Both the position numbers and the translations under genes were made by a program. Positions 49,989-64,000 of a stretch of DNA of 64,000 nucleotides are shown here, piece after piece (position 1 is the stretch's first letter; the number at the start of each line of letters is the position of its first letter). The stretch covers positions 3,038,001-3,102,000 of the forward strand of contig KB899087.1 in assembly GCA_000378025.1 (NCBI GenBank). The letters are read 5' to 3'. The notes under the pieces were generated by a model, which searched no databases, was not told where the DNA came from, and saw nothing but the letters and a program-made list of their open reading frames with translations. The DNA is from Xanthobacteraceae bacterium 501b. Its GTDB lineage: Bacteria > Pseudomonadota > Alphaproteobacteria > Rhizobiales > Xanthobacteraceae.

Positions 49989-50005
49989 TGGCTGGGGCGG
50001 GAGGA
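49989..50005 (-). other. attachment-site core: 3' end of tRNA-Gln
   Basis: On the minus strand TCCTCCCGCCCCAGCCA equals the T-arm end, acceptor strand, discriminator G and CCA of bacterial tRNA-Gln (whose 5' end is TGGGGCG). The rest of the tRNA is absent, so this is the displaced 3' fragment left on the host side, with the element to its right and the integrase immediately following. Confidence 0.7.
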
Positions 50006-50122: not shown

Positions 50123-51496
50123 ATGCGCTATGACCGAACGCATCTTGAGCAGCATCGGCGGCAATGGCGCGTCCGTATCGCGGTGCCCAAGGACATCCGA
50201 GCGACAATCGGTAAGCCCCATATCGTGGTGTCCTTGGGCACGGAGAGTCTGTCCGAAGCCGCCCGGTTGAAACACGCGGTCATCGCTGAAATCCGGCAGA
50301 CATTCGAGGAAGCGAGAGGCAGAGGTGTGAAGGCTCGGGATAGCCGCTTGCAGGAGGCTCTTCGCTGGAAGACCACTGAGGTGCTCGGGGACGTGCCCGA
50401 GGAAGAACGTGAGGGCCTCCTACGGGACCTGATTTATCAGCGCGCGGAGGCGATTGAAGCGAGCGATGGAGAGGCGGCCGCTGTCGAGTTCGCTTCTGTC
50501 GCGACGGGCGTCGCCACGCCTTTCCTGCCGCTGGTTGATCCGTGGCTTGATGAGCGGATCAGCATGAAGGCCCGGCAGAAGCACGACTACCGGCGCGCCA
50601 TCACCAAGTTCGCGGCCTTCTGCTCCGCGATTGAGGACGTGACCCGGCGCAAGGCAGGGCAGTACGTCACGGAGCACTTCACTCAGAAGGGCATCCATCC
50701 GAGGACGATCAACAAGGATGTGTCCTGCCTGTCCTCTTTTTGGCGATGGCTGGAGAAGCGCGGGTATGTCGAAGGCGACAATCCTTGGCGCGGACAGGGG
50801 GTAAACGAGCGAGACCTAGAGGTGGTGGCGACCACCAAGCGCCCCTTCACCGACGACGAGATAACGACCCTCATCAAGGGCACGGAACCTGCGACGATGC
50901 TGGGTGATGCCATCCGCATCGCCGCACTGTCAGGAATGAGGGTCTCGGAGATAGCGAAGCTGCGTGTGAAGGACGTGCGGGACGGCCTCTTCCACGTGCT
51001 CGACGCGAAAACCAAGGCTGGGAACCGCTTCGTTCCCATCCATCCCCTAACCGCCCCCCTCGTGACCGCGCGGACGGACGGAAAGGCACCCGAAGACCGC
51101 CTCTTCAGCGAGCTTCCGGCCATCAAGGAAGGCAGTGCCATCGAGCCCGGACAGGCCATCACCAAGCACTTCGGCCGCCTCAGGACGGCCCTCAAAGTGG
51201 ACGAGAAAGCCCCCGGCGCGCGCCAGAGCAATATCGACTTCCACTCCTTCCGCCGCTGGTTCATCACAAAGGCAGAGATGGCCGGACAGCCCCCGCACAT
51301 CATCTCCAGCGTGGTCGGACACGCCCGGCAGGGGATGACGCTGGGGACCTATTCAGGCGGCCCTAGTGTGAACCAGTTGCGGGCCTGCGTGGAGGCCGTG
51401 CAGTTCCCGAAGGAGAAGGAACGCCGTAAAGGGGGCGGCGCGACTGCCGAGGGCGAGCACGATATTCATGAACCCCGTGAGGACCAACATCAGTGA
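50123..51496 (+). CDS. phage tyrosine integrase
   Basis: 457 residues from ATG 50123 (GGAG six bases upstream; the frame runs to 50084). The catalytic set is complete: Arg273 (SGMRVSE), His374-x-x-Arg377 (HSFR), His400 (GHAR) and Tyr410 (GTYSGG). An N-terminal SAM-like core-binding part at about 150-230 and a basic DNA-arm domain before it. Located next to the tRNA-Gln fragment, it should catalyse integration of the element there. Confidence 0.93.
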   Translation: MRYDRTHLEQHRRQWRVRIAVPKDIRATIGKPHIVVSLGTESLSEAARLKHAVIAEIRQTFEEARGRGVKARDSRLQEALRWKTTEVLGDVPEEEREGLLRDLIYQRAEAIEASDGEAAAVEFASVATGVATPFLPLVDPWLDERISMKARQKHDYRRAITKFAAFCSAIEDVTRRKAGQYVTEHFTQKGIHPRTINKDVSCLSSFWRWLEKRGYVEGDNPWRGQGVNERDLEVVATTKRPFTDDEITTLIKGTEPATMLGDAIRIAALSGMRVSEIAKLRVKDVRDGLFHVLDAKTKAGNRFVPIHPLTAPLVTARTDGKAPEDRLFSELPAIKEGSAIEPGQAITKHFGRLRTALKVDEKAPGARQSNIDFHSFRRWFITKAEMAGQPPHIISSVVGHARQGMTLGTYSGGPSVNQLRACVEAVQFPKEKERRKGGGATAEGEHDIHEPREDQHQ

Positions 51497-51527: not shown

Positions 51528-52088
51528 TCAGTGACAGCCTGAATTGCTTAAAAGCGGCAACAAGTCTCCGTATCCCCATACCAATGGGCCAACGGCACCT
51601 ATGAGCGGCAATACGAAATATGGGTTGGACAGCGACAGGCGTTGCACGGGGCCACCGCTCAGATAGCCGTTAGGTTCGTGCCACTCAATGCAAGCGTAGA
51701 GAGCAGCCGCAGCAAACACGACAATTGCGCCTCCCCGCTGGAAATTTACGCTACATTCTGTGTTTAAAGCCCATACTACATGTACGGATAATGCAATCGT
51801 GCTAATCCAAAACGCCACGCGGGGCGCGAGGTAATTTACGGCCTTTCGCTTCATCCATGGGTACGTATCCGGCCGCATCCATTCCTTGACCACCTTGAAG
51901 GAAAGACCGAGCGTGAATGTAGCCTCGTGGGGTATCTTGGGATGCTTCACGTTGTTCACTTCCCGCATCCGCCCAGCGGGGAACCCATTTTCCACCGTGT
52001 TGTGCTCATGGGTAATATACCTCGCCAAACTCAAGCTGCCACAACACGAGCCTATGAAGACCACCCTCGGGGTTTCTCCCTGAGACAT
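51528..52088 (-). CDS. membrane protein of unknown function
   Basis: 186 residues; ATG 52088 overlaps the upstream stop as TGATG, indicating coupling. A soluble N-terminal ~85 residues (VVFIGSCCGSLSLARYITHEHN) are followed by two or three hydrophobic segments (FWISTIALSVHVVWA, IVVFAAAALYACIEW, YFVLPLIGAVGPLVWG). Composition is AT-richer than the neighbours. No family recognised; a superinfection-exclusion role is possible but unproven. Confidence 0.6.
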   Translation of the reverse strand: MSQGETPRVVFIGSCCGSLSLARYITHEHNTVENGFPAGRMREVNNVKHPKIPHEATFTLGLSFKVVKEWMRPDTYPWMKRKAVNYLAPRVAFWISTIALSVHVVWALNTECSVNFQRGGAIVVFAAAALYACIEWHEPNGYLSGGPVQRLSLSNPYFVLPLIGAVGPLVWGYGDLLPLLSNSGCH

Positions 52089-52666
52089 CACCTCCAGCTT
52101 GTCGCCTCCGCCCACTCCCGAGCCTCCTTCCGCTGCTTCGCCTGAACGCCCCGATACCGGCTGACGAGCTGCTGGGTGACATCAAGGATGACGGCCATGT
52201 CCTCTTGCGTCAGCCTCGGGAAATGGTCCGACAACCAGCACACGGCCTCCTGCACCGGCATATTCTCCCGACCACTGGACACCTGAAACTCCCTGAGGGC
52301 CGCCCCGGTCACCGCTACGGGTCCCCGCCCTCCCCGGTGGTTCAGCTTCGCGAGGGCATCAGCCCACCGCTCACGGAGCCATGCCTGCCCTGCCGGGCTG
52401 ATGACATCGAAGGGCGCGGCACCCTTCCTCCGTGGCTCGATCCGTCTCCCGAGCCCCTGCCGAACGGCCCAGGACGACATGCGGTGCCGCTGATGCGTCC
52501 CGCCGCCTTCGACACCCACGAAGTCCAGCTCACGCAGGACGGAGCGGACCTTCCGAGGGCCAACGCCCATGGCCTGCCCAAACTCCGTGACCGTGATCCA
52601 GTCGCCCTTGTTGATGGTGATGAGTTCGCCCGTGCGGCGGTCGAGAATTTCTTCCGTGTAGATCAA
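52088..52666 (-). CDS. phage winged-helix DNA-binding protein
   Basis: 192 residues with a TTG start at 52666 (GGAG upstream). Residues 18-50 (INKGDWITVTEFGQAMGVGPRKVRSVLREL) form a clear HTH. A second helical part lies near LTQEDMAVILDVTQQLVSRY, itself an HTH-like pattern. It lies downstream of the two T3/T7-like promoters at 52960-53040, so it should be expressed by phage polymerase if they function. A replication or regulatory role is likely; no named family. Confidence 0.65.
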   Translation of the reverse strand: MIYTEEILDRRTGELITINKGDWITVTEFGQAMGVGPRKVRSVLRELDFVGVEGGGTHQRHRMSSWAVRQGLGRRIEPRRKGAAPFDVISPAGQAWLRERWADALAKLNHRGGRGPVAVTGAALREFQVSSGRENMPVQEAVCWLSDHFPRLTQEDMAVILDVTQQLVSRYRGVQAKQRKEAREWAEATSWR

Positions 52667-52959
52667 GGCATGTGTCTCCGTTCCCGCGCCGCAGTGAGGG
52701 CGAGCGGGTGTAGGCGGCCGGCAAGGGCCGCTCTGGTGGCTGTGATGGTGAGGTGAAGGCGCCCCGAGGCCGCGATGAGGGGGGCCGTGAGGGGCACGCG
52801 AGGGGACCGTTGGGCCGCCTCAAAAATAGATAGACGCCCCCTCACACGCCCACGAACGAATATCCCCGCGAGGCCCTTGGCGGGTCCGGGTTGAGGTCGT
52901 TCATGTTGTGCGAGGGGGCGCTTAGGGGCGGCAGGGAGTCGGCCCTGCGCTGGCCTCGG

Positions 52960-52985
52960 GTCTTCCTATAGTGGGGGCTTAGCGG
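52960..52985 (-). promoter_or_regulatory. T3/T7-like phage promoter copy A
   Basis: Minus strand: CTAAGCCCCCACTATAGGAAGA. The CACTATAGG core with G-G start and purine leader matches T7/SP6 promoters; the CTAA upstream part matches T3-type promoters and the three other copies here. It points toward the gene at 52088-52666. Confidence 0.6.
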
Positions 52986-53016
52986 CCCTCCACGCGGCGC
53001 CCTGAGGTCGCTGGGG

Positions 53017-53040
53017 GCTTCCTATAGTGAGGGGTTGGCC
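53017..53040 (-). promoter_or_regulatory. T3/T7-like phage promoter copy B
   Basis: Minus strand: CCAACCCCTCACTATAGGAAG. The 11-mer CTCACTATAGG is identical to the T7 late promoter core (-9 to +2), and AACCC before it matches T3. Initiation would be near 53022. Copy A lies 56 bases downstream. Confidence 0.65.
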
Positions 53041-53059
53041 GGGCATCGCGCCGGCCGGC

Positions 53060-53515
53060 TCACTCCTCCCAAGGCAGCCCTTCAGCCGGGGCTTCCGGGG
53101 CCACTTCGGCCACCGGCTTGGGCTTCCGCTTCGGGGCGCCGTTCTCCATCACGACCGCCATCCACGGGCCGAAGGTCTTCACCTTCTTCGCGGCGGCACC
53201 CGCCACCAGTTCGTCCAGCCCGGCGCGGGTGAGGAAGGTGGCTTTGGAGAAGGTTGGCTCCGGGCGACCCTCCGTGGTGTCAAAGTCCTCGCGGGTGAGC
53301 GTGATGCGGTTCGCATCGGAGACCTTGAGGCCCGCGAGGATGGGCCGAGCGCCGTTCGGGGGCTTCGGGGTGTAGCCGATGGCAAGGAGGACATCGTGCG
53401 CCATGAGCATGCGGCCGTGGGCGGGGTGCCGGGTGGCCCGGATGGTCTTTCCCTCGAACCGCAAGGCGGCGAGGATGGGGGACGTAGGGGCGTGCGCAGG
53501 GGTGGCATCGGTCAT
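53060..53515 (-). CDS. Bro-N domain phage protein (antirepressor-like)
   Basis: 151 residues. The pattern LRFEGKTIRATRHPAHGRMLMAHDVLLAIGY and the later TFLTRAGLDELVAGAAAKKVKTFGPWM correspond to the N-terminal Bro domain found in phage antirepressors and DNA-binding proteins. The C-terminal 30 residues are Pro/Ala/Glu-rich with no second domain. It reads leftward into the promoter region at 52960-53040. Confidence 0.68.
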   Translation of the reverse strand: MTDATPAHAPTSPILAALRFEGKTIRATRHPAHGRMLMAHDVLLAIGYTPKPPNGARPILAGLKVSDANRITLTREDFDTTEGRPEPTFSKATFLTRAGLDELVAGAAAKKVKTFGPWMAVVMENGAPKRKPKPVAEVAPEAPAEGLPWEE

Positions 53516-53535
53516 GATGCGGTGGTCTCTTTTTT

Positions 53536-54033
53536 GTGGGGCGGGTGGAAGTGGAAGAGCTGGACGACAATGAAGAGCTGAGTTTGGTCATTCCGCTCAG
53601 GCTGAAGGCGGCAATCGCGGATGCCCTCAATCTTCACGGGCACTTAGAAAACCTAGCAGTGGAGCTTCTCTGGACGCTCAATTCGCCATCCGAGAAAGCG
53701 ATGAAGAGCATCGCCAATAATACGCCGAACAGGAATTTCGCCGCCCTAAGGGAGGCTATTGAAGCACGTGGCGGGCCCGTCCCGGACGGCATGTGGAATA
53801 CCCTCGCGCAGCTTCGCAAGGACCGGAATTTGATCGCGCACGGGCATTGGTCTGTCGTGCGCGGAAATGAGCCGCACGTGGTTTGGCGACAGTTTGAAAT
53901 GGGGAATGCCGAGACGGCCGTAGCAGTCGGCTACCCCTATGAACGGTTCGCATGGTTCATGCGGAATGCAATTCAGTTTGTCCGCATGTTTGCGGACCTA
54001 AAGCGCCACCTCGACGACGATATGTCCTCATAG
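53536..54033 (+). CDS. HEPN-like protein (RNLIAH motif)
   Basis: 165 residues from GTG 53536; starts at 53545 or 53551 are also possible and no ribosome site decides. It is mostly helical. The segment LRKDRNLIAHGHWSV carries RNLIAH, the R-x4-H motif of HEPN domains, many of which are RNases in toxin or abortive-infection systems. AT-richer than its neighbours. It is transcribed away from the Bro-N gene, with only 20 bases between them. Confidence 0.62.
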   Translation: MGRVEVEELDDNEELSLVIPLRLKAAIADALNLHGHLENLAVELLWTLNSPSEKAMKSIANNTPNRNFAALREAIEARGGPVPDGMWNTLAQLRKDRNLIAHGHWSVVRGNEPHVVWRQFEMGNAETAVAVGYPYERFAWFMRNAIQFVRMFADLKRHLDDDMSS

Positions 54034-54084
54034 GTATGCCCTAGCGTACACCTCTCGGAGGCCCTGAAACTCCGTCCGCTGGGG

Positions 54085-54113
54085 TTGACATCGAGTCTGC
54101 GTACATCTTATCT
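54085..54113 (+). promoter_or_regulatory. sigma70-type promoter for the serine recombinase
   Basis: TTGACA at 54085-54090, a 17-base spacer and TTATCT at 54108-54113, an unusually good bacterial promoter for this GC-rich DNA. It lies 35 bases before the recombinase start. TCTGCG-ACATC occurs twice in and just after it (54095 and 54111), a possible operator. Confidence 0.6.
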
Positions 54114-54147
54114 GCGGACATCACCCTTGCCGACACCGGAGAGGCCG

Positions 54148-54786
54148 ATGTCCACCATCCTCTACGCCCGCGTCTCGACTGCCGACCAAACCCTCAGCCA
54201 CCAGCGCACGCACGCCGAAGCGGCCGGCTACAGCTTCGACATGGTGATTGCCGATGACGGCGTGTCGGGCGTCTCCGTGCCCCTCAGGGAGCGCCCCGAG
54301 GGCCGGAGGCTGTTCGACGTGCTGCGCTCCGGGGACACGCTCGTGGTCCGCTGGGTGGACCGCCTCGGGCGCAACTACGCCGATGTCACCGAGACCATCC
54401 GCGAGTTCATGCGCCGGGGCGTGGTGGTGAAGACCATCATCAACGCCATGACCTTCGACGGGGCCACCAAGGACCCCGTGCAGATGGCCGTGAGAGACGC
54501 CCTGATAGGCTTCATGGCGGCCACTGCTCAGGCGCAGGCAGAGGCGACCAAGGAGGCGCAGAAGGCCGGCATCGCCCACGCCAAGGCCGCTGAGGGGGCG
54601 ACGAAGTACAAGGGGCGGAAGCCGACCTTCAGCCGGGAGCAGTTCACCCGCGTGGCTGAGATGCTGGCGCAGGGCGCGGGTGTGAGCGACGTGTCGAAAC
54701 ACACGGGCCTCACCCGACAGACGGTCTACCGGATCAAGGACGACCCGGCCGGACAGGCGAAGGCGCTGGAGGCATGGGGCCTCTGA
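54148..54786 (+). CDS. serine recombinase (resolvase/invertase)
   Basis: 212 residues from ATG 54148 (GGAGAGG upstream). Catalytic N-terminus with ILYARVSTADQTLSHQ, whose Ser is the nucleophile, then GVSGVSVPLRERPEGRRL, DTLVVRWVDRLGRNYADV, and a C-terminal HTH (FTRVAEMLAQGAGVSDVSKHTGLTRQTVYRI). It may invert a segment or resolve multimers; no obvious paired recombination sites were seen nearby. Its end overlaps the convergent VanZ-like gene by 53 bases. Confidence 0.92.
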   Translation: MSTILYARVSTADQTLSHQRTHAEAAGYSFDMVIADDGVSGVSVPLRERPEGRRLFDVLRSGDTLVVRWVDRLGRNYADVTETIREFMRRGVVVKTIINAMTFDGATKDPVQMAVRDALIGFMAATAQAQAEATKEAQKAGIAHAKAAEGATKYKGRKPTFSREQFTRVAEMLAQGAGVSDVSKHTGLTRQTVYRIKDDPAGQAKALEAWGL

Positions 54787-55201
54787 GGCGGGGCAGGCTG
54801 CCGAGGCGCTCGCTGTACTGCCGGCGCCCATAGCTGATGATGCGGGCCGCCACCGTGCCCATGAGGAGGCCGGCAAGCGCCCCTCCACCGCTCATGAGGA
54901 AGTCGCTCCATGTGGTGGAGCGGCCGGGCGAGAGCTGCTGAAGCACCTCCATGAGCCCGCCAAGGCCGACCAAGGCGAGACCCGCGAGCATCAGCACCGC
55001 GCCCCTGCCTCGGAAAGCGAGCGCCATCAGACCACCCGTGCCCCAATAGGCGATGAAGTGGTCGGTGCCATCGGGAATGCCCGTGCGCGGCATCTCCTGA
55101 GCGGGAAGCAGGGAGAGAACCACGATGATGAAGACGCACGCGAACGCCGCTGCATAGAGGAGACGATTGACGGCGGGCGGCACGGGGGCGGGTTTGCTCA
55201 T
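54734..55201 (-). CDS. VanZ-like membrane protein
   Basis: 155 residues from ATG 55201 (ATG 55219 also possible). Four hydrophobic segments with the VanZ pattern TDHFIAYWGTGGLMALAF, GGLMEVLQQLSPGRSTTWSDFLMSGGGALAGLL. In other bacteria VanZ modestly alters teicoplanin resistance; in phage its role is unknown, perhaps a cell-envelope change. The Pro/Arg-rich tail overlaps the recombinase end. Confidence 0.78.
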   Translation of the reverse strand: MSKPAPVPPAVNRLLYAAAFACVFIIVVLSLLPAQEMPRTGIPDGTDHFIAYWGTGGLMALAFRGRGAVLMLAGLALVGLGGLMEVLQQLSPGRSTTWSDFLMSGGGALAGLLMGTVAARIISYGRRQYSERLGSLPRLRGPMPPAPSPVRPGRP

Positions 55202-55589
55202 GCCTGCCGCATACAACATCGCCTCACCGAATGCAGGGCGACGCTCATCACAAGGACCGGAGCTATCGCCGTCTCTCCTAGCCGGTGGGAGCGCCTCTGA
55301 GACGGGGTTGATGGTGGGGGCCATCTCCGAGAACCCTCTCCGGCCGGCATGAGCGCCCCATAGGCAGGAACCTTCCCTCCCTATACTGGACCCGTAAGGC
55401 CTCGCTCGGGGGACGCGCACGCGCGCTCTCTAGGGACGGCTCTGCTCCATATACAGGAGGCATAATTTCCGATGAGAAATAAGTGGGTTATGAGTGGTGC
55501 CTGTTTCGGGCTCGTTGAGTTGCTCAAGGTGATGGTCTCGCGGTTTGCCGAGGTCTATTACCCGCGCCCGCAACACGGCCAGAAATGAT
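55202..55589. other. gap holding a small ORF and a promoter-like element
   Basis: About 390 bases between VanZ and the DUF2293-like gene. The minus strand at 55372-55399 contains CAGTATAGGGAGGG, a weaker likeness to the phage promoters upstream of VanZ. A plus-strand 38-codon frame lies at 55472-55588. Nothing else recognised. Confidence 0.35.
55472..55588 (+). CDS. possible 38-residue small protein
   Basis: ATG 55472 follows AGGAGG by 11 bases, longer than ideal. The peptide (MRNKWVMSGACFGLVELLKVMVSRF, then a Tyr/Pro-rich end) is amphipathic and basic. It lies opposite the surrounding minus-strand genes. Could be a real small phage protein or chance. Confidence 0.3.
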   Translation: MRNKWVMSGACFGLVELLKVMVSRFAEVYYPRPQHGQK

Positions 55590-56102
55590 CTAGGCCGGCT
55601 TCTGCCGCTCCAGCCATCCCCTCAGATACTCAGCAATGGCCGCGTTCTGCGTAGCGATGACGCCCGCATTGTCCTTCCGCTTGCCCTTCTTCCGGCGCCG
55701 CTCCCTGAGCTGCCTGCGGAGCTGGACATAGCCCTCATCGGTCTCAGCCGAGCCCTGCCGCCAGCGGTTCGCCATGTCCTCCACCTCCTGCGCCACGACC
55801 ATCCGGGCCTCCTCGCGCGTGAGCCCCTCATTGCCGCCGTTGATCCGCAAGAGGCGCTCATAGTCCGTGCATTCGTGCCGCACGTAGTTGCTCACGAGAA
55901 TGCCTGCGACTTCCCCGAGGCGACCGTAATGGCCCTTGTTCCGGGCGCGTCTGAGTATCCTGCGGCGCGTCCTGTAGCCCGCTGAAGGGTACATGGCAGC
56001 GAGATAGGTGCGGAGCTGGTCGAGAAACGCTTCGCGCTGCTCGGGGGTGGGCTCGGTCGGCGCGCGTTGGGGCTGGGCTTCGGCTGGCGTGTCGGGTGTC
56101 AT
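55590..56102 (-). CDS. DUF2293-like phage protein
   Basis: 170 residues. The core VSNYVRHECTDYERLLRINGG followed by LTREEARMVVAQEVEDMANRW matches the pattern of DUF2293 (RHxxTxYxxLL...AR..V). The tail is highly basic (RRQLRERRRKKGKRKD). A nucleic-acid role is likely from charge. No function is established. Confidence 0.6.
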   Translation of the reverse strand: MTPDTPAEAQPQRAPTEPTPEQREAFLDQLRTYLAAMYPSAGYRTRRRILRRARNKGHYGRLGEVAGILVSNYVRHECTDYERLLRINGGNEGLTREEARMVVAQEVEDMANRWRQGSAETDEGYVQLRRQLRERRRKKGKRKDNAGVIATQNAAIAEYLRGWLERQKPA

Positions 56103-56439
56103 GATGCCCGCGAGGATGCCGCGCGAGGCGGTTCCGAGGAAGGCGCTCAGGGCGAGTCAGATTGACTCACCAGCGGCCGGGAGCGGCGTTCGGCAGAGTG
56201 TGGGGCGGCGGGACTGAGCGGCCATGTAGGGGCCTCGCGGGGGCGCCCGTGAAGGGGACGGAATGCGGGACTGAAGGCCCCCGAGGGGGGAATCGCGGCT
56301 TTGTTCTATTTCAGATGGGCGCACGAATTTTACCAAGGAAATATTTTGGTCACCACCGGAGCCGGGAGGCGTTAGCGAGAGGCGACCTGACAATCGGAAA
56401 CTAAACCTACAGAAACCTACAATAAAATACGAACTAATA
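56103..56439. other. composition boundary, no gene
   Basis: The left part to about 56320 is high-GC phage DNA with G-rich runs; from about 56320 the sequence turns abruptly AT-rich, marking the left edge of the kinase cassette. No ribosome sites with good open frames. Confidence 0.45.
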
Positions 56440-56628
56440 CTAATTTTTAGGTTTCCACTTGATCGAATTGCGTGATGAACGAAAATCCAAATGTTGGCCA
56501 TCTATGATCGGAGAGATAAAGAACGGACTTCTCTTATCTATTATAGGCGCAGAGGTATCTCGCGCGCGCCTCTGTGCGGAGACAGCGCGCTTTTTGTATA
56601 GAGCTGGGTCGTTTCGGACCTTAGTCAT
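56440..56628 (-). CDS. small basic ORF coupled to the kinase gene
   Basis: 62 residues; ATG 56628 overlaps the kinase TGA as TGATG. Sequence is basic and polar (ALYKKRAVSAQRRARDT...KWKPKN) with no known domain. The junction suggests coupled translation, but it may be chance in AT-rich DNA. Confidence 0.35.
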   Translation of the reverse strand: MTKVRNDPALYKKRAVSAQRRARDTSAPIIDKRSPFFISPIIDGQHLDFRSSRNSIKWKPKN

Positions 56629-57665
56629 CAGTTTTCTTTCAGAACTCTCTTAATCGCGGCCTTCGGCATGCTTGCCTTGCAAAACTCCCTCTTTTGCCTT
56701 GGCGTCCCGCCGTGAGCGCATGAGGTAAACGTCGTCGAGCCATCTGCGTTCACGACAAATCGCTTCTCGGTTCCGTTCTCTCTCTTAACCCATATCCTTC
56801 TAACGGGGTCTGGCACCGGCCTCCAATCAAAACATTGGTCGACCTCCGCAAGCGCATTGGCCACCTTAAGGGCAGACGGAAAGCGGTTGGCCGGAACTGG
56901 ATCGAGGCACTTGATGATCACGCGCTGAAGCTTCTGCGGAACATGCTCGCCAAAGGCCGCGCGATCCGGGAATGTCCCTGCTGTGATGGCGCGCGCCAAC
57001 CCTGCTCTATCGAGGCCCGCAGTTCCATCGAAGGAGGCAAACTGCCTATAAAATTCTTCGTTGCCGTTGATCATGCGATAGAGGGTCAAGCCAACTTGAT
57101 AAATGTCGAACAGCAGATTGTATGGCGGCCCTGCCACCACCTCTGGAGGCGCCATACGAATATAAAGCTTGTCGGGAGCTGCGTGCCCAAGCTCCATTTG
57201 TTTGGCGAGGCCGAAATCGGAAAGAAGCGCCTCGCCTCTATTAGAAAGAAGGATGTTATCTGGCTTTATATCGAAGTGAATTAGACCCTTCGAATGTATG
57301 TTGTGCAACCCGCTCAACAGTTGACAGCCAAGCCGTATAACTTCCCTTACGGTCAAACGCCCACTCGACATCAGGCCCTTTACAGAGCCACGCCGATAGA
57401 ATGGCATAGCTATATAGATGTTGCTCGCATCCTCGCACGCGTAATGAATTTGAACCACGTTCTGATGCGCAGTCGCATATAGATTTCGTGCCTCAGAAAA
57501 GAACTCGTCGGCATTTATCATTTTTGACTTAGAGATGGTTTTCATGACGATATCAACGCCAAGCTGAGCGTCATAAACCAGATGTGTCGTCGAGTTTCTC
57601 CCGTCCGCACCAATTTCACGTATTTCTCGGAAGGAAAGCTCAGCGCGCTTGTACGGCTTAAGCAT
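56628..57665 (-). CDS. Hanks-type Ser/Thr protein kinase
   Basis: 345 residues. Kinase subdomains are visible: VMKTISK with Lys42 for ATP, catalytic loop HFDIKPDN (Asp132), DFGLAK at 150-154, APPEV (APE) and PFYRRGSVKGLM hinge. The glycine loop is poor (IGADGRNSTTH). The C-terminal ~70 residues form a small extra domain with several Cys (FTSCAHGG, REFCKAS) of unknown role. Start overlaps the upstream gene's stop by 8 bases. AT-rich codon usage unlike the neighbours indicates transfer. Phage-borne kinases can act in abortive infection (Stk2 is a known example elsewhere). Confidence 0.88.
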   Translation of the reverse strand: MLKPYKRAELSFREIREIGADGRNSTTHLVYDAQLGVDIVMKTISKSKMINADEFFSEARNLYATAHQNVVQIHYACEDASNIYIAMPFYRRGSVKGLMSSGRLTVREVIRLGCQLLSGLHNIHSKGLIHFDIKPDNILLSNRGEALLSDFGLAKQMELGHAAPDKLYIRMAPPEVVAGPPYNLLFDIYQVGLTLYRMINGNEEFYRQFASFDGTAGLDRAGLARAITAGTFPDRAAFGEHVPQKLQRVIIKCLDPVPANRFPSALKVANALAEVDQCFDWRPVPDPVRRIWVKRENGTEKRFVVNADGSTTFTSCAHGGTPRQKREFCKASMPKAAIKRVLKEN

Positions 57666-58113
57666 TGACTGCCCCCATAGCGCAGAGAATTGCTTCTCGC
57701 TCGACGGAGGACAACGCCCCCCAATTCTCTACTCCCGGATCAGTGACGCCTTCAATCATTGGCTTTAACTCAGTCCTTCTGAGACTGAGTTTAGCTGCAA
57801 TAGAAGAGATGTGACCGACATAAAAGGTCTCTAATTCGCTGCTGGCAAATGCCTCTTTAATGACACCCTCGATTTCGATACGAAGGATGCTAGGGTTTCT
57901 AGCGTTTGGCTCTGCCGCTCGAATCCCTGCTCGGGAAATACGATACTCTCTCAATATGTCCAATAAATTGCTCCTGACATATTTAAGAGCATCTGGGACT
58001 TCAAATGCAGCAGGGATTATTATCTGCTCCACACTCTCGATGGCCTGCGCCTCTGAGTCGTATACCGCGAAGACCACGCCAGTCGGCGCTACTCTTATGC
58101 CAATTGTGTGCAT
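57658..58113 (-). CDS. partner protein of the kinase, possible RNase-H-like fold
   Basis: 151 residues from ATG 58113 (GGGGGT upstream). The start IGIRVAPTGVVFAVYDSE recalls the first two strands of RNase-H/RuvC-like folds, followed by an alternating alpha-beta pattern (YRISRAGIRAAEPNARN, ETFYVGHISSIAAKLSL). Acidic catalytic residues are not clearly conserved, so enzymatic activity is doubtful. It overlaps the kinase start by 8 bases. The pair forms one AT-rich operon. No named family. Confidence 0.5.
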   Translation of the reverse strand: MHTIGIRVAPTGVVFAVYDSEAQAIESVEQIIIPAAFEVPDALKYVRSNLLDILREYRISRAGIRAAEPNARNPSILRIEIEGVIKEAFASSELETFYVGHISSIAAKLSLRRTELKPMIEGVTDPGVENWGALSSVEREAILCAMGAVNA

Positions 58114-58173
58114 GATACCCCCAACCGTGGAAGGGATGTTTGCTACTTTTCCATCGGCAATCAAGGTGCAATT

Positions 58174-58263
58174 TTGACTGCGCTCAACTTCGAAGCGGGT
58201 AAGGTGCTCCAGCCAGAAAAGGCCGCCACTGCACAGCGCGTACGCCTCCTGCGCCCGCGCTGA
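58174..58263 (+). pseudogene. 3' remnant of a plus-strand gene
   Basis: From about 58174 the plus strand reads 29 codons of GC-rich coding character (ALNFEAGKVLQPEKAATAQ then RVRLLRPR) to TGA 58261, followed at once by a good terminator. No start exists upstream because the AT-rich cassette begins there. It looks like the tail of a gene cut by insertion of the kinase cassette. Confidence 0.4.
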
Positions 58264-58265
58264 TT

Positions 58266-58304
58266 CCCCAAGGCAGCGCTTTCACACCGCCTTGGGGTCT
58301 TTTT
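58266..58304 (+). terminator. rho-independent terminator, plus strand
   Basis: CCCCAAGGC (58266-58274) pairs with GCCTTGGGG (58289-58297), followed by TCTTTTT. Three bases after the TGA of the plus-strand remnant. It also lies just past the end of the giant virion gene on the other strand, where its T-run would not act. Confidence 0.8.
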
Positions 58305-58314
58305 CATCCCGCTC

Positions 58315-61300
58315 TCACCGCCCCTTCGGCGCGAAGTCGGGAAGGTCGCGGGACATGGCGCCGAACAGCATCACCATGGGCAAGGTGTTCTGCCAAATGA
58401 GCGGCCGGAGGATATCCCGTATCTCGCCACGCGACATGCGGCGGTCATCCGCCAAGGCGGCCATCAGCGCCCGCATAGCCTTCGGGATGTCGTCCGCGAG
58501 GCCAGTGGTGGGGTTACCGAACCAGAGGTCCGAGGTCTGGTCGGTGGAACGGCTGTTGAAGACGCCCGGCTGCCCGAAGGCGCGCGCGAAGGTGTCCACC
58601 AGAAGCGGCAGAAGCGCCGTCATTCCCGTCCGCTGAAGGCCGCCCATCGCGATGCCCTGAAGGGACAGGCGTTCCTCAAGCTGCTTCTCGGAGAGCATCG
58701 GCGCGTTCGCCACCGTCTGCGCGATATGACCGAGCTGCCCCGCCACCATTGTGCCGAGGAACATGGACATGCTCTCGCGGTCCCTCCAGTGCATGGCGTG
58801 GAGCATCTGCTTGGAGTGGGCCGCGACGACGAAGGTGCGGAACTGGAGCACCGTGGCTGCCACCGGGTGAGACATCCACGGCGCGAGGAGGCCGGGGCTG
58901 TTCGTCATCACCATGCGGCTGCCCTGCACATGCACCGCGCGTTCAAAGTGCGCGGCGGCCTCAAGGTCATCCCACTGGTCCAGATTGAGCCGCGCCAGTT
59001 TGAAGGAAGAACCGTCCTTCAAGGTCCGGTGCTTCTTTATCTGGTTCAGAACCCGCTCTGCCATGGCGTCCGTCAGTCCCATCTTGCGGAGCCGCTCCAC
59101 CGGCACCGTGATTTCCCCCGAGGCCGCGCGAGAGAACCAGTGCACCACCGCAGAGGTGGACCAGCGGTGCAGCCATGTGTTCATGGCGTTGAGCCCTGAT
59201 ATCTCCATGGTGGCCCGCTTGGCCGCCCCAAGGGCTCTCTCTACGCGCACCATGAGGGGGCTGCGGTCGAAGGCCGTTCCGAACTCCCCTTCGGTGGACA
59301 GATTCCAGTCGCCAGCCGTGCGGATGCGCTCGGCACCGCGCCCGAAGACGCCCTCCAGCTCAGCCGCGAACTCGTCCTTGAGTTTGCCTGTGCGGACATC
59401 TCTCAGGAGCGCCCGCAAGCTCGGCATGCTGGACATGGCCGCCTTGAAGCCGGAGGAGAAGATGGCACCCACCTCGGGGAACTGAGCGAACCCGATCTGC
59501 CCCGCGACACGGACGAAGCCGTATTCGCGCCACAGCCGGAGCCACTGCGCATAGGCCGCGCTATGGTCGTGCAGGGGAACGCCCGCCGCGCTCTTATGGA
59601 GATATTCGATGCGCCGCTGGTCCTTCACCAAGGCGGCCTGCGGCTGGTCTATTTCATCCGCAACGGCGGCCATCTTCTGTAGATAGTGCTCCAGCTTCCC
59701 CGGCCCCGCGAGGCCGTCAATGAGAAGATGCCGCTGCCCCTCCACCACCTTCTCGACGAGCACCTGAGACAGGGCAACATGGCCGGCCATCTGATGGTTA
59801 TAGGACGCCATCAGCTTGCCGATGTCCTCCTCAAGGAGCAATTCCCCGATGGTGGTCTCAAGGCCATCCGGCATCCTGATGCGGAGCCCCTCATCCAGAA
59901 GGACGCGGTGCTTGGCACGGGTGACGGAGCCCCTGTCCACCGGCCGTGCCATCGTCGCCATGACGTTCTCGATGGCCTCCGGGTCCACGCCGGGGATGTC
60001 GTGCAGGGCCGCGCGAAGGCCCTCAAGGTCATTCGAGAAGAGCCCGTCCGCCGCGCGCGCCTCCATCCCACGGGCCACCTTGCGGTGCGTGGTGAGCCAT
60101 CCCCGGCTGATAGCGTGGAGCGCCTTCGGGTCGATATCGGGCTGAGCTTGGCGCATCGCTGCGGCAAACGCATCGGCCACCCCGTTATGCCCGTAGCGGC
60201 GCAGGGCGTCCCCGAGCTTGGTGTGGGAGATGACACGGTTCACATAGTTGGGCAGGGATGGCACCGTGGGGTCGAAGCCGGGGACCGGACGGCGCTGTCC
60301 GGGGAGACCTATGGCGCGGCCGGGGTCCACCGCGAGGGTGTGATAGTCGTCATACCATCTGCCCACGTCCTTCACGGCCTTCAGCACCTCCGGGTCGAAG
60401 GTGCGGGTGGGGTCCTGATTGCGCCGCGCGCGGGTGACTTCCTTCTGGAACTCCACGCGCGCTTTCTCGCGCGCGAAAGGACCAAGCCCGCGTGCATCGG
60501 CCCACGCCTTCAGATGCGGCTCAATGGCAAGCGCGCGGCGCGTGTCCATGACCTGCTGGAGCCGTGCGCGCTCCTGCGTGGCACTCCACAGGGCCGGGAC
60601 ATCCTTGTCCAGATTGCCCGTGCCGTCTTCCCCTAGGGCGTTTCCGAGCATGCGGGTAAGCTGGTTCTCGGAAGCCTTGGTCCGGCCGGTAGCATCGAAG
60701 CGCACGGGTGCCATGCCGGTCTTCGGGGCGTTCGTTCCATCAGCAAGGCGGATGAAGTCGTTGGCGTCCTGAGCAAGGGGCACCTGTTCTATGCCCTGAG
60801 CGGCGCCCACGGAGCTGTCCTTCGGCCGCAGGGGCTCCACGCCGTACTTGGCCTCCGTCTTCTCCACCGCCTCCTTCGAGGTTTCACGAATAACCTGCGC
60901 TTCGGGTGCCATGTGCGGCATCTTGCTCAGCGCGCCGAAAGCCGCCCCCATGAACGCTCCACCGGCGCCCGCGAGGAGCACCGCGTCCCACTCCGGGTTC
61001 GGCTTGAGGTTCTCCTCCACGCCCGCGAGGCCGGCATTGACCGCCGCCCCGGCCACCCCCGCGCTGAGGACACGCTGCATGCGGGAGAGCTTGGTGCCCC
61101 ACATGATGGCGTTGCCGGTGCCTGCCGTGGCGACACCCACGCCGATGCCGATAGGGTCCCCGATGGCGGCGCCTACGGAGAGCAGAGCGCCCGTGATGCC
61201 GGCCTCGGAGAGTGTCCGCTGCCGGTCCATCTGAGCGAGCAGCTCGCGCCGGATCGAGTCCGCTTGATCGGCCGAATACGCGTTCTCAAAGGCCCGCCAC

Positions 61301-61962
61301 CGGTCGCTCGGGATGCCCTGAGTGAGGGCCTTGAGGCGCTCATCGGTCATCTGGAAGTCGGGGTCATCGGGCAGGAGCCACGGCTTGGTGACGAGCCACC
61401 CGGTGAGGGAATGCTCGCGCGCCGCTGCCATGGCGGTTTCCCCGATACCTGGCCCCGGAGCGGCCTCAGCCGCCATCTGCTCGGGCACCGTGATGGGCCG
61501 CGTGGGGGAACGGTCGGCAACGGTGATGTCCTGCCCGCCAAGGAGGGCCGCAGCCTTGGCCTTATGGTCCGCCATCTGCGTTTCCACCTTGTCCCTGACG
61601 GTGCCCGGAGCGCCACCAGCGGCGGCGTCTGAGCGGTCGTAGAGCCCCACCCCGCCCGCGTTGATGGCGCTGTAGATATCGAGGAGGCCCATGCCGGGCT
61701 TCACCCCGGCGTCCTTCAGATAGCGCTCAGCGGCCTCTACCTGCGCCGTGATGGGCATGTCCTGCGTCACGCCGTACTTGGCGCGCTGCGGCTCGCCCCA
61801 CTGTATGAGGCCGCGATGCTCGCCCCATTTGGTGGTGGGGCCTTTCTTCCACGGGTCGAAGGTGCCGCCCGTCTCGTAGGACATCGCCGTAGCGAGGTGG
61901 ATAGGCTCCACCCCGAGGCGCTTGGAGGACGCGCGGATGGCGTCTGCGAGTTCGGTGTTCAT
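58315..61962 (-). CDS. giant internal virion protein with transglycosylase-like N-terminus
   Basis: 1215 residues if it starts at ATG 61962; ATG 62013 is in frame but lies two bases after a terminator T-run. The N-terminus (ATAMSYETGGTFDPW, with Glu30 as candidate catalytic residue, then HRGLIQWGEPQRAKYGV) resembles a lysozyme/lytic-transglycosylase fold. The long helical remainder (about 250-1200) with Ala/Gly-rich membrane-like segments (VGVATAGTGNAIMWG) fits DNA-ejection proteins such as T7 gp16 (about 1300 residues with an N-terminal transglycosylase). This is the clearest structural gene of the prophage. Confidence 0.82.
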   Translation of the reverse strand: MNTELADAIRASSKRLGVEPIHLATAMSYETGGTFDPWKKGPTTKWGEHRGLIQWGEPQRAKYGVTQDMPITAQVEAAERYLKDAGVKPGMGLLDIYSAINAGGVGLYDRSDAAAGGAPGTVRDKVETQMADHKAKAAALLGGQDITVADRSPTRPITVPEQMAAEAAPGPGIGETAMAAAREHSLTGWLVTKPWLLPDDPDFQMTDERLKALTQGIPSDRWRAFENAYSADQADSIRRELLAQMDRQRTLSEAGITGALLSVGAAIGDPIGIGVGVATAGTGNAIMWGTKLSRMQRVLSAGVAGAAVNAGLAGVEENLKPNPEWDAVLLAGAGGAFMGAAFGALSKMPHMAPEAQVIRETSKEAVEKTEAKYGVEPLRPKDSSVGAAQGIEQVPLAQDANDFIRLADGTNAPKTGMAPVRFDATGRTKASENQLTRMLGNALGEDGTGNLDKDVPALWSATQERARLQQVMDTRRALAIEPHLKAWADARGLGPFAREKARVEFQKEVTRARRNQDPTRTFDPEVLKAVKDVGRWYDDYHTLAVDPGRAIGLPGQRRPVPGFDPTVPSLPNYVNRVISHTKLGDALRRYGHNGVADAFAAAMRQAQPDIDPKALHAISRGWLTTHRKVARGMEARAADGLFSNDLEGLRAALHDIPGVDPEAIENVMATMARPVDRGSVTRAKHRVLLDEGLRIRMPDGLETTIGELLLEEDIGKLMASYNHQMAGHVALSQVLVEKVVEGQRHLLIDGLAGPGKLEHYLQKMAAVADEIDQPQAALVKDQRRIEYLHKSAAGVPLHDHSAAYAQWLRLWREYGFVRVAGQIGFAQFPEVGAIFSSGFKAAMSSMPSLRALLRDVRTGKLKDEFAAELEGVFGRGAERIRTAGDWNLSTEGEFGTAFDRSPLMVRVERALGAAKRATMEISGLNAMNTWLHRWSTSAVVHWFSRAASGEITVPVERLRKMGLTDAMAERVLNQIKKHRTLKDGSSFKLARLNLDQWDDLEAAAHFERAVHVQGSRMVMTNSPGLLAPWMSHPVAATVLQFRTFVVAAHSKQMLHAMHWRDRESMSMFLGTMVAGQLGHIAQTVANAPMLSEKQLEERLSLQGIAMGGLQRTGMTALLPLLVDTFARAFGQPGVFNSRSTDQTSDLWFGNPTTGLADDIPKAMRALMAALADDRRMSRGEIRDILRPLIWQNTLPMVMLFGAMSRDLPDFAPKGR

Positions 61963-62015
61963 GGCGATGTTCAGGGGCTCGTTAGGCGGTCGCGAGGGGG
62001 ACCGGCCGGACATAG

Positions 62016-62048
62016 AAAAGCCCCCGCTCCGGGTGTCTGAACGGGGGC
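62016..62048 (-). terminator. minus-strand terminator before the virion gene
   Basis: On the minus strand GCCCCCG pairs with CGGGGGC (15-base loop), followed by TTTTCT. It ends transcripts of the 62087-62584 gene, and lies directly before the large virion gene, which would then need read-through or phage polymerase. Confidence 0.7.
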
Positions 62049-62086
62049 GGGAGGGGCGGCGGATAGATGGCCGGCGACGGTAATCT

Positions 62087-62584
62087 TTACTCGTCGATGC
62101 TGAAGCCAAACTCCCCACTCGTGTCAGGCAGATCATCTTGCAATTCCGGAAGCTCAACCAGAGCATCCAGCATCACCTCTAGAGCGCAACCAAAGCGGCG
62201 ATGGGGGTGGGGTCCCCTTCTTCCGCCAGACGACGCGTCGACACGGCCTTCTAGCGCCTCGCCACAACCAGTTAGCGCCGGCCGCTCGCACAACTGATGC
62301 CAAGCATCGTAGATCTTCTGCACCTCTGAGAACCTAGTCGAAGGAGGCATGTCCGACAACATCGCGCGGAAATTTGTAAGGTCGTTGAGCAGGTTATCAA
62401 CCTCCGCAATAGCCTCTTTCCTGTATTCAGACACCCACCACTCAACCGTTATACCGTCATTCATTTCATCGAATTTGGTGGAGGCGCTGCCATTCGGACT
62501 CATTTTGGAGGCTAATCCACGACCATCCGCCGACCGGCCATTCGTCGATGTAAAAGGTAGGATGTCATTCACGCGCGCGACCAT
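62087..62584 (-). CDS. hypothetical protein, possible moron gene
   Basis: 165 residues from ATG 62584 (AAGG upstream, weak; an in-frame Met at codon 28 is possible). Mixed acidic-helical sequence with VEWWVSEYRKEAIAEVDNLLNDL. AT-richer than the flanking genes. It has its own terminator (62016-62048) and the tandem phage promoters upstream (62667-62765). No family recognised. Confidence 0.55.
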   Translation of the reverse strand: MVARVNDILPFTSTNGRSADGRGLASKMSPNGSASTKFDEMNDGITVEWWVSEYRKEAIAEVDNLLNDLTNFRAMLSDMPPSTRFSEVQKIYDAWHQLCERPALTGCGEALEGRVDASSGGRRGPHPHRRFGCALEVMLDALVELPELQDDLPDTSGEFGFSIDE

Positions 62585-62666
62585 AATTTGATACCTTATA
62601 TCTGTTCTGCGGGAGTTGGGCAGAGACGAAAGACGCCCGCCACGACCACCGAAGGGTTCGGCAGGG

Positions 62667-62708
62667 GGCGGGCGAATGATCCGTAATTGCGATAGTGAGG
62701 GGTTAGCT
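62667..62708 (-). promoter_or_regulatory. T3/T7-like promoter repeat, copy C
   Basis: 42-base unit; minus strand reads AGCTAACCCCTCACTATCGC then AATTACGG. CTAACCCCTCACTAT is shared with copy D and nearly with A and B. The start region has CGC instead of AGG, so initiation would differ. Copy D follows at 57 bases. Confidence 0.6.
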
Positions 62709-62723
62709 CGACAGGGCCGGCGA

Positions 62724-62765
62724 GGCGGGCGATTGATCCGTAATCGCGATAGTGAGGGGTTAGCC
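62724..62765 (-). promoter_or_regulatory. T3/T7-like promoter repeat, copy D
   Basis: Second unit, differing from copy C at three positions over 42 bases. Both point leftward to the 62087-62584 gene and the giant virion gene. A 12-base gap separates it from the small membrane protein stop. Confidence 0.6.
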
Positions 62766-62776
62766 GCAAACCGTTG

Positions 62777-62959
62777 TCAGCGAACGATTTGCACCAGCAC
62801 GCTCACGGCTCCGAACCATGGCAGGATGAGCGACAGCACGACGCCCAAGAGCCAGCCCTTCGCGCCCCAAAAGATCATCCCGAGGGGCGCGCTGGCGATG
62901 TAGCCGAGCACGAGGACGCATGCCCCGAAGGACCCGAGGCGTTCCATGAGGTCCCTCAT
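62777..62959 (-). CDS. small two-helix membrane protein, holin-like
   Basis: 60 residues from ATG 62959 (GGAG seven bases upstream). Two hydrophobic segments (FGACVLVLGYIASAPLGMIFWG and LLGVVLSLILPWFGAVSVLV) with a short charged N-terminus. Starts 3 bases after the stop of the upstream gene, on the same strand. Size and topology fit a holin or other phage membrane protein, but nothing proves it. Confidence 0.5.
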   Translation of the reverse strand: MRDLMERLGSFGACVLVLGYIASAPLGMIFWGAKGWLLGVVLSLILPWFGAVSVLVQIVR

Positions 62960-62961
62960 GT

Positions 62962-63783
62962 TCACGCTCCAGCGGCTGCGGGGCGTTCAGCGAGGCGGCG
63001 CTCTACCTCAGCCTCAAGGGCCGCCTCTTCGGCCACCTTCCGCTCAGCCTCGCGCGCCACATAAAGCCGCACCATTTCCTCGTGGTCGCTCGCCTTCGTC
63101 GCCCACGCGCGTGCCTTCGTATCCAATTGCTCCGGCCATATCTTCCACGCGAGGCGCAGGGCAAGGCGTTTCAGCCGCCACCGGAAGGGGTTAGTGAGGG
63201 CGGTAAGAAGCGCCACAAAGAGCAGGATGGCGATGAGCAGCGGCAAGCCGAGAACGAGCCACGGCACAGAGGCAGCCAGTCGCGCCGCGCGGGGCCAGTG
63301 ATAGGCCGGCTCCGAGAGGTCGGCTTGGATCGTCGCGCGCCCGCATCCAATCTCAATGGAGCCCGCCCGTTGAAGGTCGAGCGAGAAGAAATCACGCCAC
63401 GTCATGCCGGCTGATTGCCGGTAGAAGTTCCAGTCGAAGAAGGCCCCGCCGATAAGCGGCAGGGTCACGGACACCCCAAGCCGTTGCGGAGGCGGGCACG
63501 TGGCGGCAATGTAGGCCCCCCGCTCATCGGCACTGAGGAACGACCATGGGCGCTGAAGCAGGAGATGGAGGCGTCCGGCGCGAAGCTCCAAATCGCCCCT
63601 ACCGTCGCTCCAGCAATCAAAGAAGTGCCCCTCAGCCGTCGGCCACCACTCGGCCACAACGCCACCGATGCCCGGTATGCGCAGGGATAGATGCTCAAAC
63701 CAGCGCCCACGGGGGGCCGGGCCTTCCGCCTTATGGGGCTGTTCGGTGGTGGCAGGGGCATCGGAGGCGGCGGAGGAGGTCAT
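62962..63783 (-). CDS. phage membrane-anchored hypothetical protein
   Basis: 273 residues from ATG 63783 (AAAGGG upstream; a start at 63867 is possible). A soluble N-terminal domain with WWPTAEGHFFDCWSDGRGDLELR, one long hydrophobic segment (VPWLVLGLPLLIAILLFVALLTAL) and a C-terminal coiled coil rich in Ala/Glu/Arg (AEEAALEAEVERRLAERP). No family recognised. It is followed by the holin-like gene. Confidence 0.65.
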   Translation of the reverse strand: MTSSAASDAPATTEQPHKAEGPAPRGRWFEHLSLRIPGIGGVVAEWWPTAEGHFFDCWSDGRGDLELRAGRLHLLLQRPWSFLSADERGAYIAATCPPPQRLGVSVTLPLIGGAFFDWNFYRQSAGMTWRDFFSLDLQRAGSIEIGCGRATIQADLSEPAYHWPRAARLAASVPWLVLGLPLLIAILLFVALLTALTNPFRWRLKRLALRLAWKIWPEQLDTKARAWATKASDHEEMVRLYVAREAERKVAEEAALEAEVERRLAERPAAAGA

Positions 63784-63902: not shown

Positions 63903-64000
63903 TCAGCTCCCCACCGTGCTCCTCCCGCTGCCGCCGCCCTCGATCTGCTCCAGAACCCGCCTCCCCGCCTTGGTGAGGTGTATCGCCACCGCCCGGCCAT
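63903..64000 (-). CDS. 3' end of a winged-helix regulator (partial)
   Basis: The minus strand reads an open frame from the window edge to TGA 63903-63905: AVAIHLTKAGRRVLEQIEGG then GSGRSTVGS. The I-x-LTxxGxxxLxxI pattern is the wing and following helix of MarR/PadR-type regulators. Only about 32 codons are visible. Confidence 0.5.
   Translation of the reverse strand, partial: GRAVAIHLTKAGRRVLEQIEGGGSGRSTVGS

Follow-up and report, generated by a model that had tools for sequence, protein, structure and literature searches.

Textbooks present phage T7 as the model of a self-sufficient lytic phage. Its tandem-promoter region, with two promoters 75 bp apart just after the polymerase gene, is a replication origin. 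Small integrative elements such as P4, PICI and PLE depend on the genes of another phage. Judging by the title of a 1990 study by Chung and Hinkle, the T7 replication origin and the concatemer junction reportedly suffice for packaging into transducing particles. In T3 and T7, polymerase pausing at the concatemer junction is described as starting packaging (PMC3276506). Although the original prediction for the locus studied here called a temperate phage with T7-style transcription unusual, temperate T7-like phages are already published, among them Pseudomonas phage LUZ100, described as such in PMC10134795. The Streptomyces satellites Mulch and Flayer, in the account given by PMC10690885, are likewise small integrative elements dependent on another phage's genes. 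Our search of the open-access literature found no satellite of a T7-like phage.

The locus lies in the genome of strain 501b, which is an Ancylobacter, and was analysed as a window of 64,000 nucleotides with position 1 at its first letter; other genomes, loci and contigs carry our G, L and C numbers. Four T3/T7-like promoters in two tandem pairs had been predicted on the minus strand. All four were found in place, with start-to-start spacings of 56 and 57 bp, and all point in one direction. Genes were called with a simple script, not a standard annotator. Promoter coordinates below run from −17 to +6, bits refer to a matrix from the G015 prophage, and a slash marks a start or a boundary.

49989-50005, no strand: attL-like 17-bp repeat TGGCTGGGGCGGGAGGA; its partner, the tRNA-Gln 3′ end at 68276-68292 (L001:4276-4292), lies outside the window
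50123-51496, plus: tyrosine integrase (Pfam Phage_integrase 1e-9; phrog_1 8e-41)
52088-52666, minus: DNA-binding-like protein, encoded downstream of the late-type pair (phrog_57 at E 7e-4; nothing matched in Pfam)
52823-52876, minus: site Y, resembling a T7-type terminal repeat at its right boundary, GTCT/ATCTATTTTT
52961-52983, minus: late-type T7-like promoter, 22.6 bits, ...CACTATA/GGAAG
53017-53039, minus: late-type T7-like promoter, 21.8 bits, ...CACTATA/GGAAG
53060-53515, minus: conserved family protein, no function assigned, 81% identity in G017 and 86% in G014; its end is about 20 bp short of the late-type promoters
54148-54786, plus: serine resolvase/invertase (Pfam Resolvase 3e-26)
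55377-55395, minus: motif B, ACGGGTCC[A/T]GTATAGGGAG, one of three copies in the element, the others at 64331 and 65535
55590-56102, minus: DUF2293 protein, conserved in G001, G014 and G017
56285-56330, minus: site X, resembling a T7-type terminal repeat at its left boundary, AAAATTCGTGCGCCCA/TCTGAAAT, 25 nt, CCCCCC
56628-57665, minus: serine/threonine protein kinase (phrog_2361 7e-62)
57658-58164, minus: RuvC-like resolvase (phrog_3875 1e-32)
58315-62013, minus: gp16-type internal virion protein (IVP), 1232 aa (phrog_342 3e-135; 56% identity to the G015 phage protein)
62685-62707, minus: middle-type T7-like promoter, 25.1 bits, GCTAACCCCTCACTATC/GC
62742-62764, minus: middle-type T7-like promoter, 27.3 bits, GCTAACCCCTCACTATC/GC
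62777-62959, minus: small conserved protein, encoded immediately upstream of the middle promoters, 59% identity in G017 and 76% in G001
62962-63783, minus: conserved family protein, no function assigned, 37-41% identity in partial matches to G017 and G001

The promoter-like sites are confined to this element. Allowing one mismatch at most, the pattern CTAACNCCYCACTATNG (17 bases) matches four times in the 5.1-Mb genome, each time inside the element (reversed control, 0), and the chromosome does not hold equally many matches elsewhere. Within the window, CCCTCACTAT with at most one mismatch gave eight matches against 1.47 expected, a count reached by 0 of 100 shuffles, and three of the eight are exact and within the element; a looser 13-base pattern with two mismatches was unspecific (44 genome matches against 42 for its control). 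Across 30 Ancylobacter genomes, CTAACNCCYCACTATNG at the same tolerance matched 16 times (501b four, G017 four, G001 one, G014 one, G015 six), in every case inside an element of the 501b family or the G015 prophage. Among 391 genomes of the bacterial family 24 hold a match, and those outside Ancylobacter, one or two per genome, look like background. The strict promoter form A had no exact match in viral contigs. A matrix from the six G015 prophage sites alone ranked the four 501b sites as the top four in 124 kb, with the next at 12.2 bits, and 20 shuffles of the 124 kb yielded a single match of at least 18 bits. A T3 promoter matrix, run on the same 124 kb, ranked three of the sites 2nd, 4th and 5th and left the fourth outside the top eight; it was dropped as an arbiter, being too T3-specific to decide.

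A 17-bp repeat of the tRNA-Gln 3′ end stands at 49989-50005 and again at 68276-68292, and the element therefore measures 18.3 kb, its right part reaching 4.3 kb beyond the window. Similarity of the left flank to genome G026 stops at 50005; on the tRNA side 51 nt are shared before the two diverge, no tRNA was called at that place in G026, and no clean empty att site was recovered. No P4-like or PICI-like hallmark genes were named when the called proteins were scanned with PHROG and Pfam. The protein at 52088-52666 bears at best a weak likeness to a terminase small subunit; its G018 homologue contains a stop, a single-protein scan of viral contigs gave no relatives, and its AlphaFold model (mean pLDDT 51) was too poor for a fold search. 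The protein at 53060-53515 has matches in seven of the 391 family genomes, every one of them Ancylobacter. To the right of the window, a transcription-factor-like gene (L001:1005-1436, plus strand) combines an Rnk N-terminus with a GreA/GreB C-terminal domain.

The prediction also held that the element encodes its own single-subunit RNA polymerase, to be sought right of position 64000. No T7-type polymerase was found there, where the element ends at 68292, and the G015 polymerase had no match in the whole 501b genome; the promoter likeness and its confinement to an integrated element stand, and the polymerase of its own does not. Across the 30 genus genomes the G015 polymerase matched G015 only (29 without, 501b included), the polymerase of Mesorhizobium phage Lo5R7ANS had no match in 84 kb, and a search with Pfam PF00940 came back empty, as did its controls. 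With 20 Lo5R7ANS proteins as queries, one, the gp16-type IVP, was matched in the element; the queries gave no match there for DNA polymerase, primase, large terminase, capsid, portal or tail tube. A self-sufficient temperate T7-like phage was rejected because no polymerase gene was found in the element, one protein in 20 was matched and the element is bounded at 18.3 kb. No helper is resident in the 501b genome.

Another Ancylobacter, G015, holds a complete T7-like prophage with integrase and polymerase, matching 19 of the 20 Lo5R7ANS proteins. Its six motif sites lie on one strand. One precedes the polymerase gene by about 20 bp, and the rest are between the middle and late blocks. All six have C at position −8, where three of the four 501b sites have T, and for this reason the G015 prophage is a relative and not the helper of the 501b element. 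Between its capsid and tail-tube genes lie two insertion-sequence-like genes (L031, 44537-45684). Lo5R7ANS (L012) carries a motif, AATAGGGCCTCTACTAG, three times (12983, 22928 and 44998), once just after the polymerase gene, which is possibly the promoter of its own polymerase.

Related elements were found in G001 (presumably A. koreensis; a contig end cuts the element), G017 (which we take to be A. amanitiformis) and G014, and share genes and gene order with that of 501b. Pieces or broken copies are present in G018, G002 and G008, and decayed copies in G004 and G024; G008 has in addition a more distant element that carries IVP and gp15-like genes. Repeats of att type place the G017 element (17.7 kb) at tRNA-Leu, the G014 element (11.0 kb) at tRNA-Thr and the distant G008 element (19.7 kb) at tRNA-Ala. 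The layout of the promoters recurs as well: pairs spaced 57 and 59 bp follow the small gene (62777-62959) by about 10 bp in 501b and G017, another gene lies between the homologue of the small gene and the promoter in G001, and promoters lie 20-35 bp after gene 53060-53515 in 501b, G017 and G014. The pieces in G018, G002 and G008 (contig C40) contain no promoter site of at least 13 bits by the G015 matrix. The G014 element has no IVP, and its SSB gene shares 82% identity with the one in G015.

G017 (L023:16921-18192) and G014 (L042:3997-5340) carry, downstream of the late promoter, a phrog_4756 gene (no function assigned) with 63% mutual identity, in which motifs like those of a small family-A polymerase (DYGQ..., HDGL) were noticed by eye. 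This gene is absent from the 501b element, where 52088-52666 occupies its place, and the AlphaFold model of the G017 protein (mean pLDDT 40) was too poor for a fold search. The G017 element also has a gene pair (L023:14545-15161) that by eye resembles a Phd/Doc-type toxin-antitoxin module.

In the IVP tree, 501b and G017 group with a support of 100, G001 joins at 88, and the G015 phage stands beside them. The dN/dS values are 0.27-0.40 among the three elements and 0.34-0.36 against the G015 phage; the protein is intact and under purifying selection in all three. As a single-protein query against viral and genome contigs the IVP found no relatives, and an alignment of four IVPs as query recovered them. 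Two Mesorhizobium loci (L049, L050) have an IVP but, within 10 kb of it, no neighbouring capsid, tail-tube or terminase gene, and no promoter-like repeat was recognised in these elements; an Aminobacter IVP (L051) sits isolated among chromosomal genes. The combination of IVP, integrase and resolvase without such neighbours occurs at L049, L050 and G008 contig C27 (about 356-376 kb), and these elements are possibly further satellite lineages.

Two further sites resemble the ends of T7-type DNA. Site X lies in a block upstream of the DUF2293 gene that is conserved in 501b, G001, G014 and partly G017, and the core of this block matches the G015 prophage downstream of its large terminase gene. The left boundary reads aaaatctgagtgacta/TCTCACAG in T7, 25 nt before CCCCC (T3 likewise 25), and its look-alike in 501b reads aaaattcgtgcgccca/TCTGAAAT, 25 nt before CCCCCC; the spacing is 26 nt in G017, 26 in Rhizobium phage Pasto and 32 in Lo5R7ANS, the two phages fitting X in part, with other start letters too. 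A regular expression for X, composed after the sites were known, gave six matches in 580 kb (501b, G001, G014, G017, G018 and the G015 phage), two in ten shuffles and none in 91 other loci (1.66 Mb). A genus-wide X pattern, which misses 501b, found nine distinct places against four for its control: five known sites, two new decayed satellites (G004, G024) and two chance-like places. RNA folding of site X gave nothing above shuffles.

At the right boundary, T7, T3 and Pasto have CCCT/ATCTGTT and 501b has GTCT/ATCTATT, which is similar only, and Lo5R7ANS does not fit Y. The short form of Y is weak alone (12 matches in 580 kb; 18 in ten shuffles). The longer GTCTATCNNTTTT occurs in the 580 kb once each in 501b, G017, G014 and G015, and nowhere else. 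X and Y are 3.5 kb apart in 501b, against 255 bp in G015, where they delimit a predicted repeat; the annotated terminal repeats measure 160 bp in T7, 231 in T3, 246 in Lo5R7ANS and 271 in Pasto. The nearest late start, its promoter upstream, is 134 bp from Y in 501b, 120 bp in G017 and 134 bp in G014.

Taken together, the G015-like promoters found nowhere else in the genome, the lack of matches to polymerase, replication, capsid, tail and large-terminase genes, the conserved family layout and the X look-alike lead us to read the 501b element, with a probability of about 0.72, as an integrative satellite of temperate T7-like phages that uses the polymerase and packaging of a helper. It is small, bounded by att repeats and equipped with an integrase, and it recurs, is under selection and lacks a full phage gene set, as satellites do. 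The element would most likely be mobilised in particles of a T7-like helper, since promoters and a DNA-end signal are present and no polymerase, capsid or terminase gene was found.

In this reading, the element would rest in tRNA-Gln until infection by, or induction of, a T7-like phage. The polymerase of this helper would then fire the middle promoters, ahead of the IVP block, and the late promoters beside site Y. After excision, helper proteins would copy the DNA, with priming perhaps at the tandem promoters, and a pause of the polymerase at the terminal-repeat sites would allow cutting and packaging by the helper terminase. The satellite IVP would enter the particle and favour or adapt the ejection of satellite DNA. 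Promoters and junction would thus form a small set of signals for use of a T7-like helper.

An improbable alternative is that the element is a decayed temperate T7-like prophage, which lost polymerase, replication and most structural genes and kept promoters, IVP and terminal-repeat site as leftovers. Decay of this kind would suit the G015 prophage counterparts of all three, the visibly broken copies in G002, G004, G018 and G024, and the lone Aminobacter IVP; yet the same non-phage genes and promoter positions are kept in separate tRNA genes, the IVP remains intact under purifying selection in three elements, G014 keeps a phage SSB gene where others have the IVP, and integrase and att repeats are intact in 501b, G017 and G014. 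We give a little less credence still to an infection-triggered defence island, in which the promoters would sense an incoming T7-like polymerase and switch on blocking genes (IVP interference, kinase, resolvases). Such promoters would answer phage polymerase alone, and the toxin-antitoxin-like pair of G017 and the kinase and RuvC-like protein between IVP and DUF2293 in 501b would fit, but this explanation leaves site X unexplained; defence island and satellite can also be compatible. That the sites are operators or other repeated binding sites instead of phage-polymerase promoters is very improbable: the middling ranks under the T3 matrix speak for it, but the sites share the 17-nt layout of annotated T3 promoters, and the same sites stand in a T7-like prophage, just ahead of its polymerase gene and ahead of the middle and late blocks, on one strand.

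A weaker fifth promoter had been suggested at 55372-55399. This is not the same motif and instead is a minus-strand copy of a separate repeated site, motif B. With at most one mismatch, motif B occurs at eight places in the 30 genus genomes, three in 501b and five in G001, G014 and G002 (one mismatched); at three mismatches the control outnumbers the pattern. Seven of the eight run along the main genes, and the G014 copy at 25354 runs opposite. Viral contigs gave no exact match, and hence no phage with the site. A tentative and rather doubtful extension of the satellite reading is that two specificities are at work, promoter set A answering to G015-like helpers, and a second, unsampled T7-like polymerase reading motif B (17 nt before +1, with a TATA/GGGAG start). 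Late promoters 120-134 bp before a putative pause and cleavage site might let helper transcription mark satellite DNA for packaging, with the element's own gp16-type protein loaded into the helper particle.

If the satellite reading is true, a satellite can parasitise a T7-like phage chiefly through copies of the phage's polymerase promoters and DNA-end signal, and promoter, junction and IVP are each amenable to well-known T7 biochemistry. The same reading may also explain the Mesorhizobium IVPs that lack other T7-type genes. We know of no use of T7-type promoters together with a T7 concatemer junction by P4, PICI, PLE, Mulch or Flayer. The 501b element has integrase, T7-type promoters, gp16-type IVP and sequences similar to terminal-repeat boundaries in common with Lo5R7ANS, Pasto, LUZ100 and the G015 prophage, but unlike these temperate T7-like phages it appears to lack polymerase, replication, head, tail and large-terminase genes. 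Whereas T7-transduced DNA was a laboratory plasmid, the 501b element is chromosomal and has its own integrase and conserved genes.
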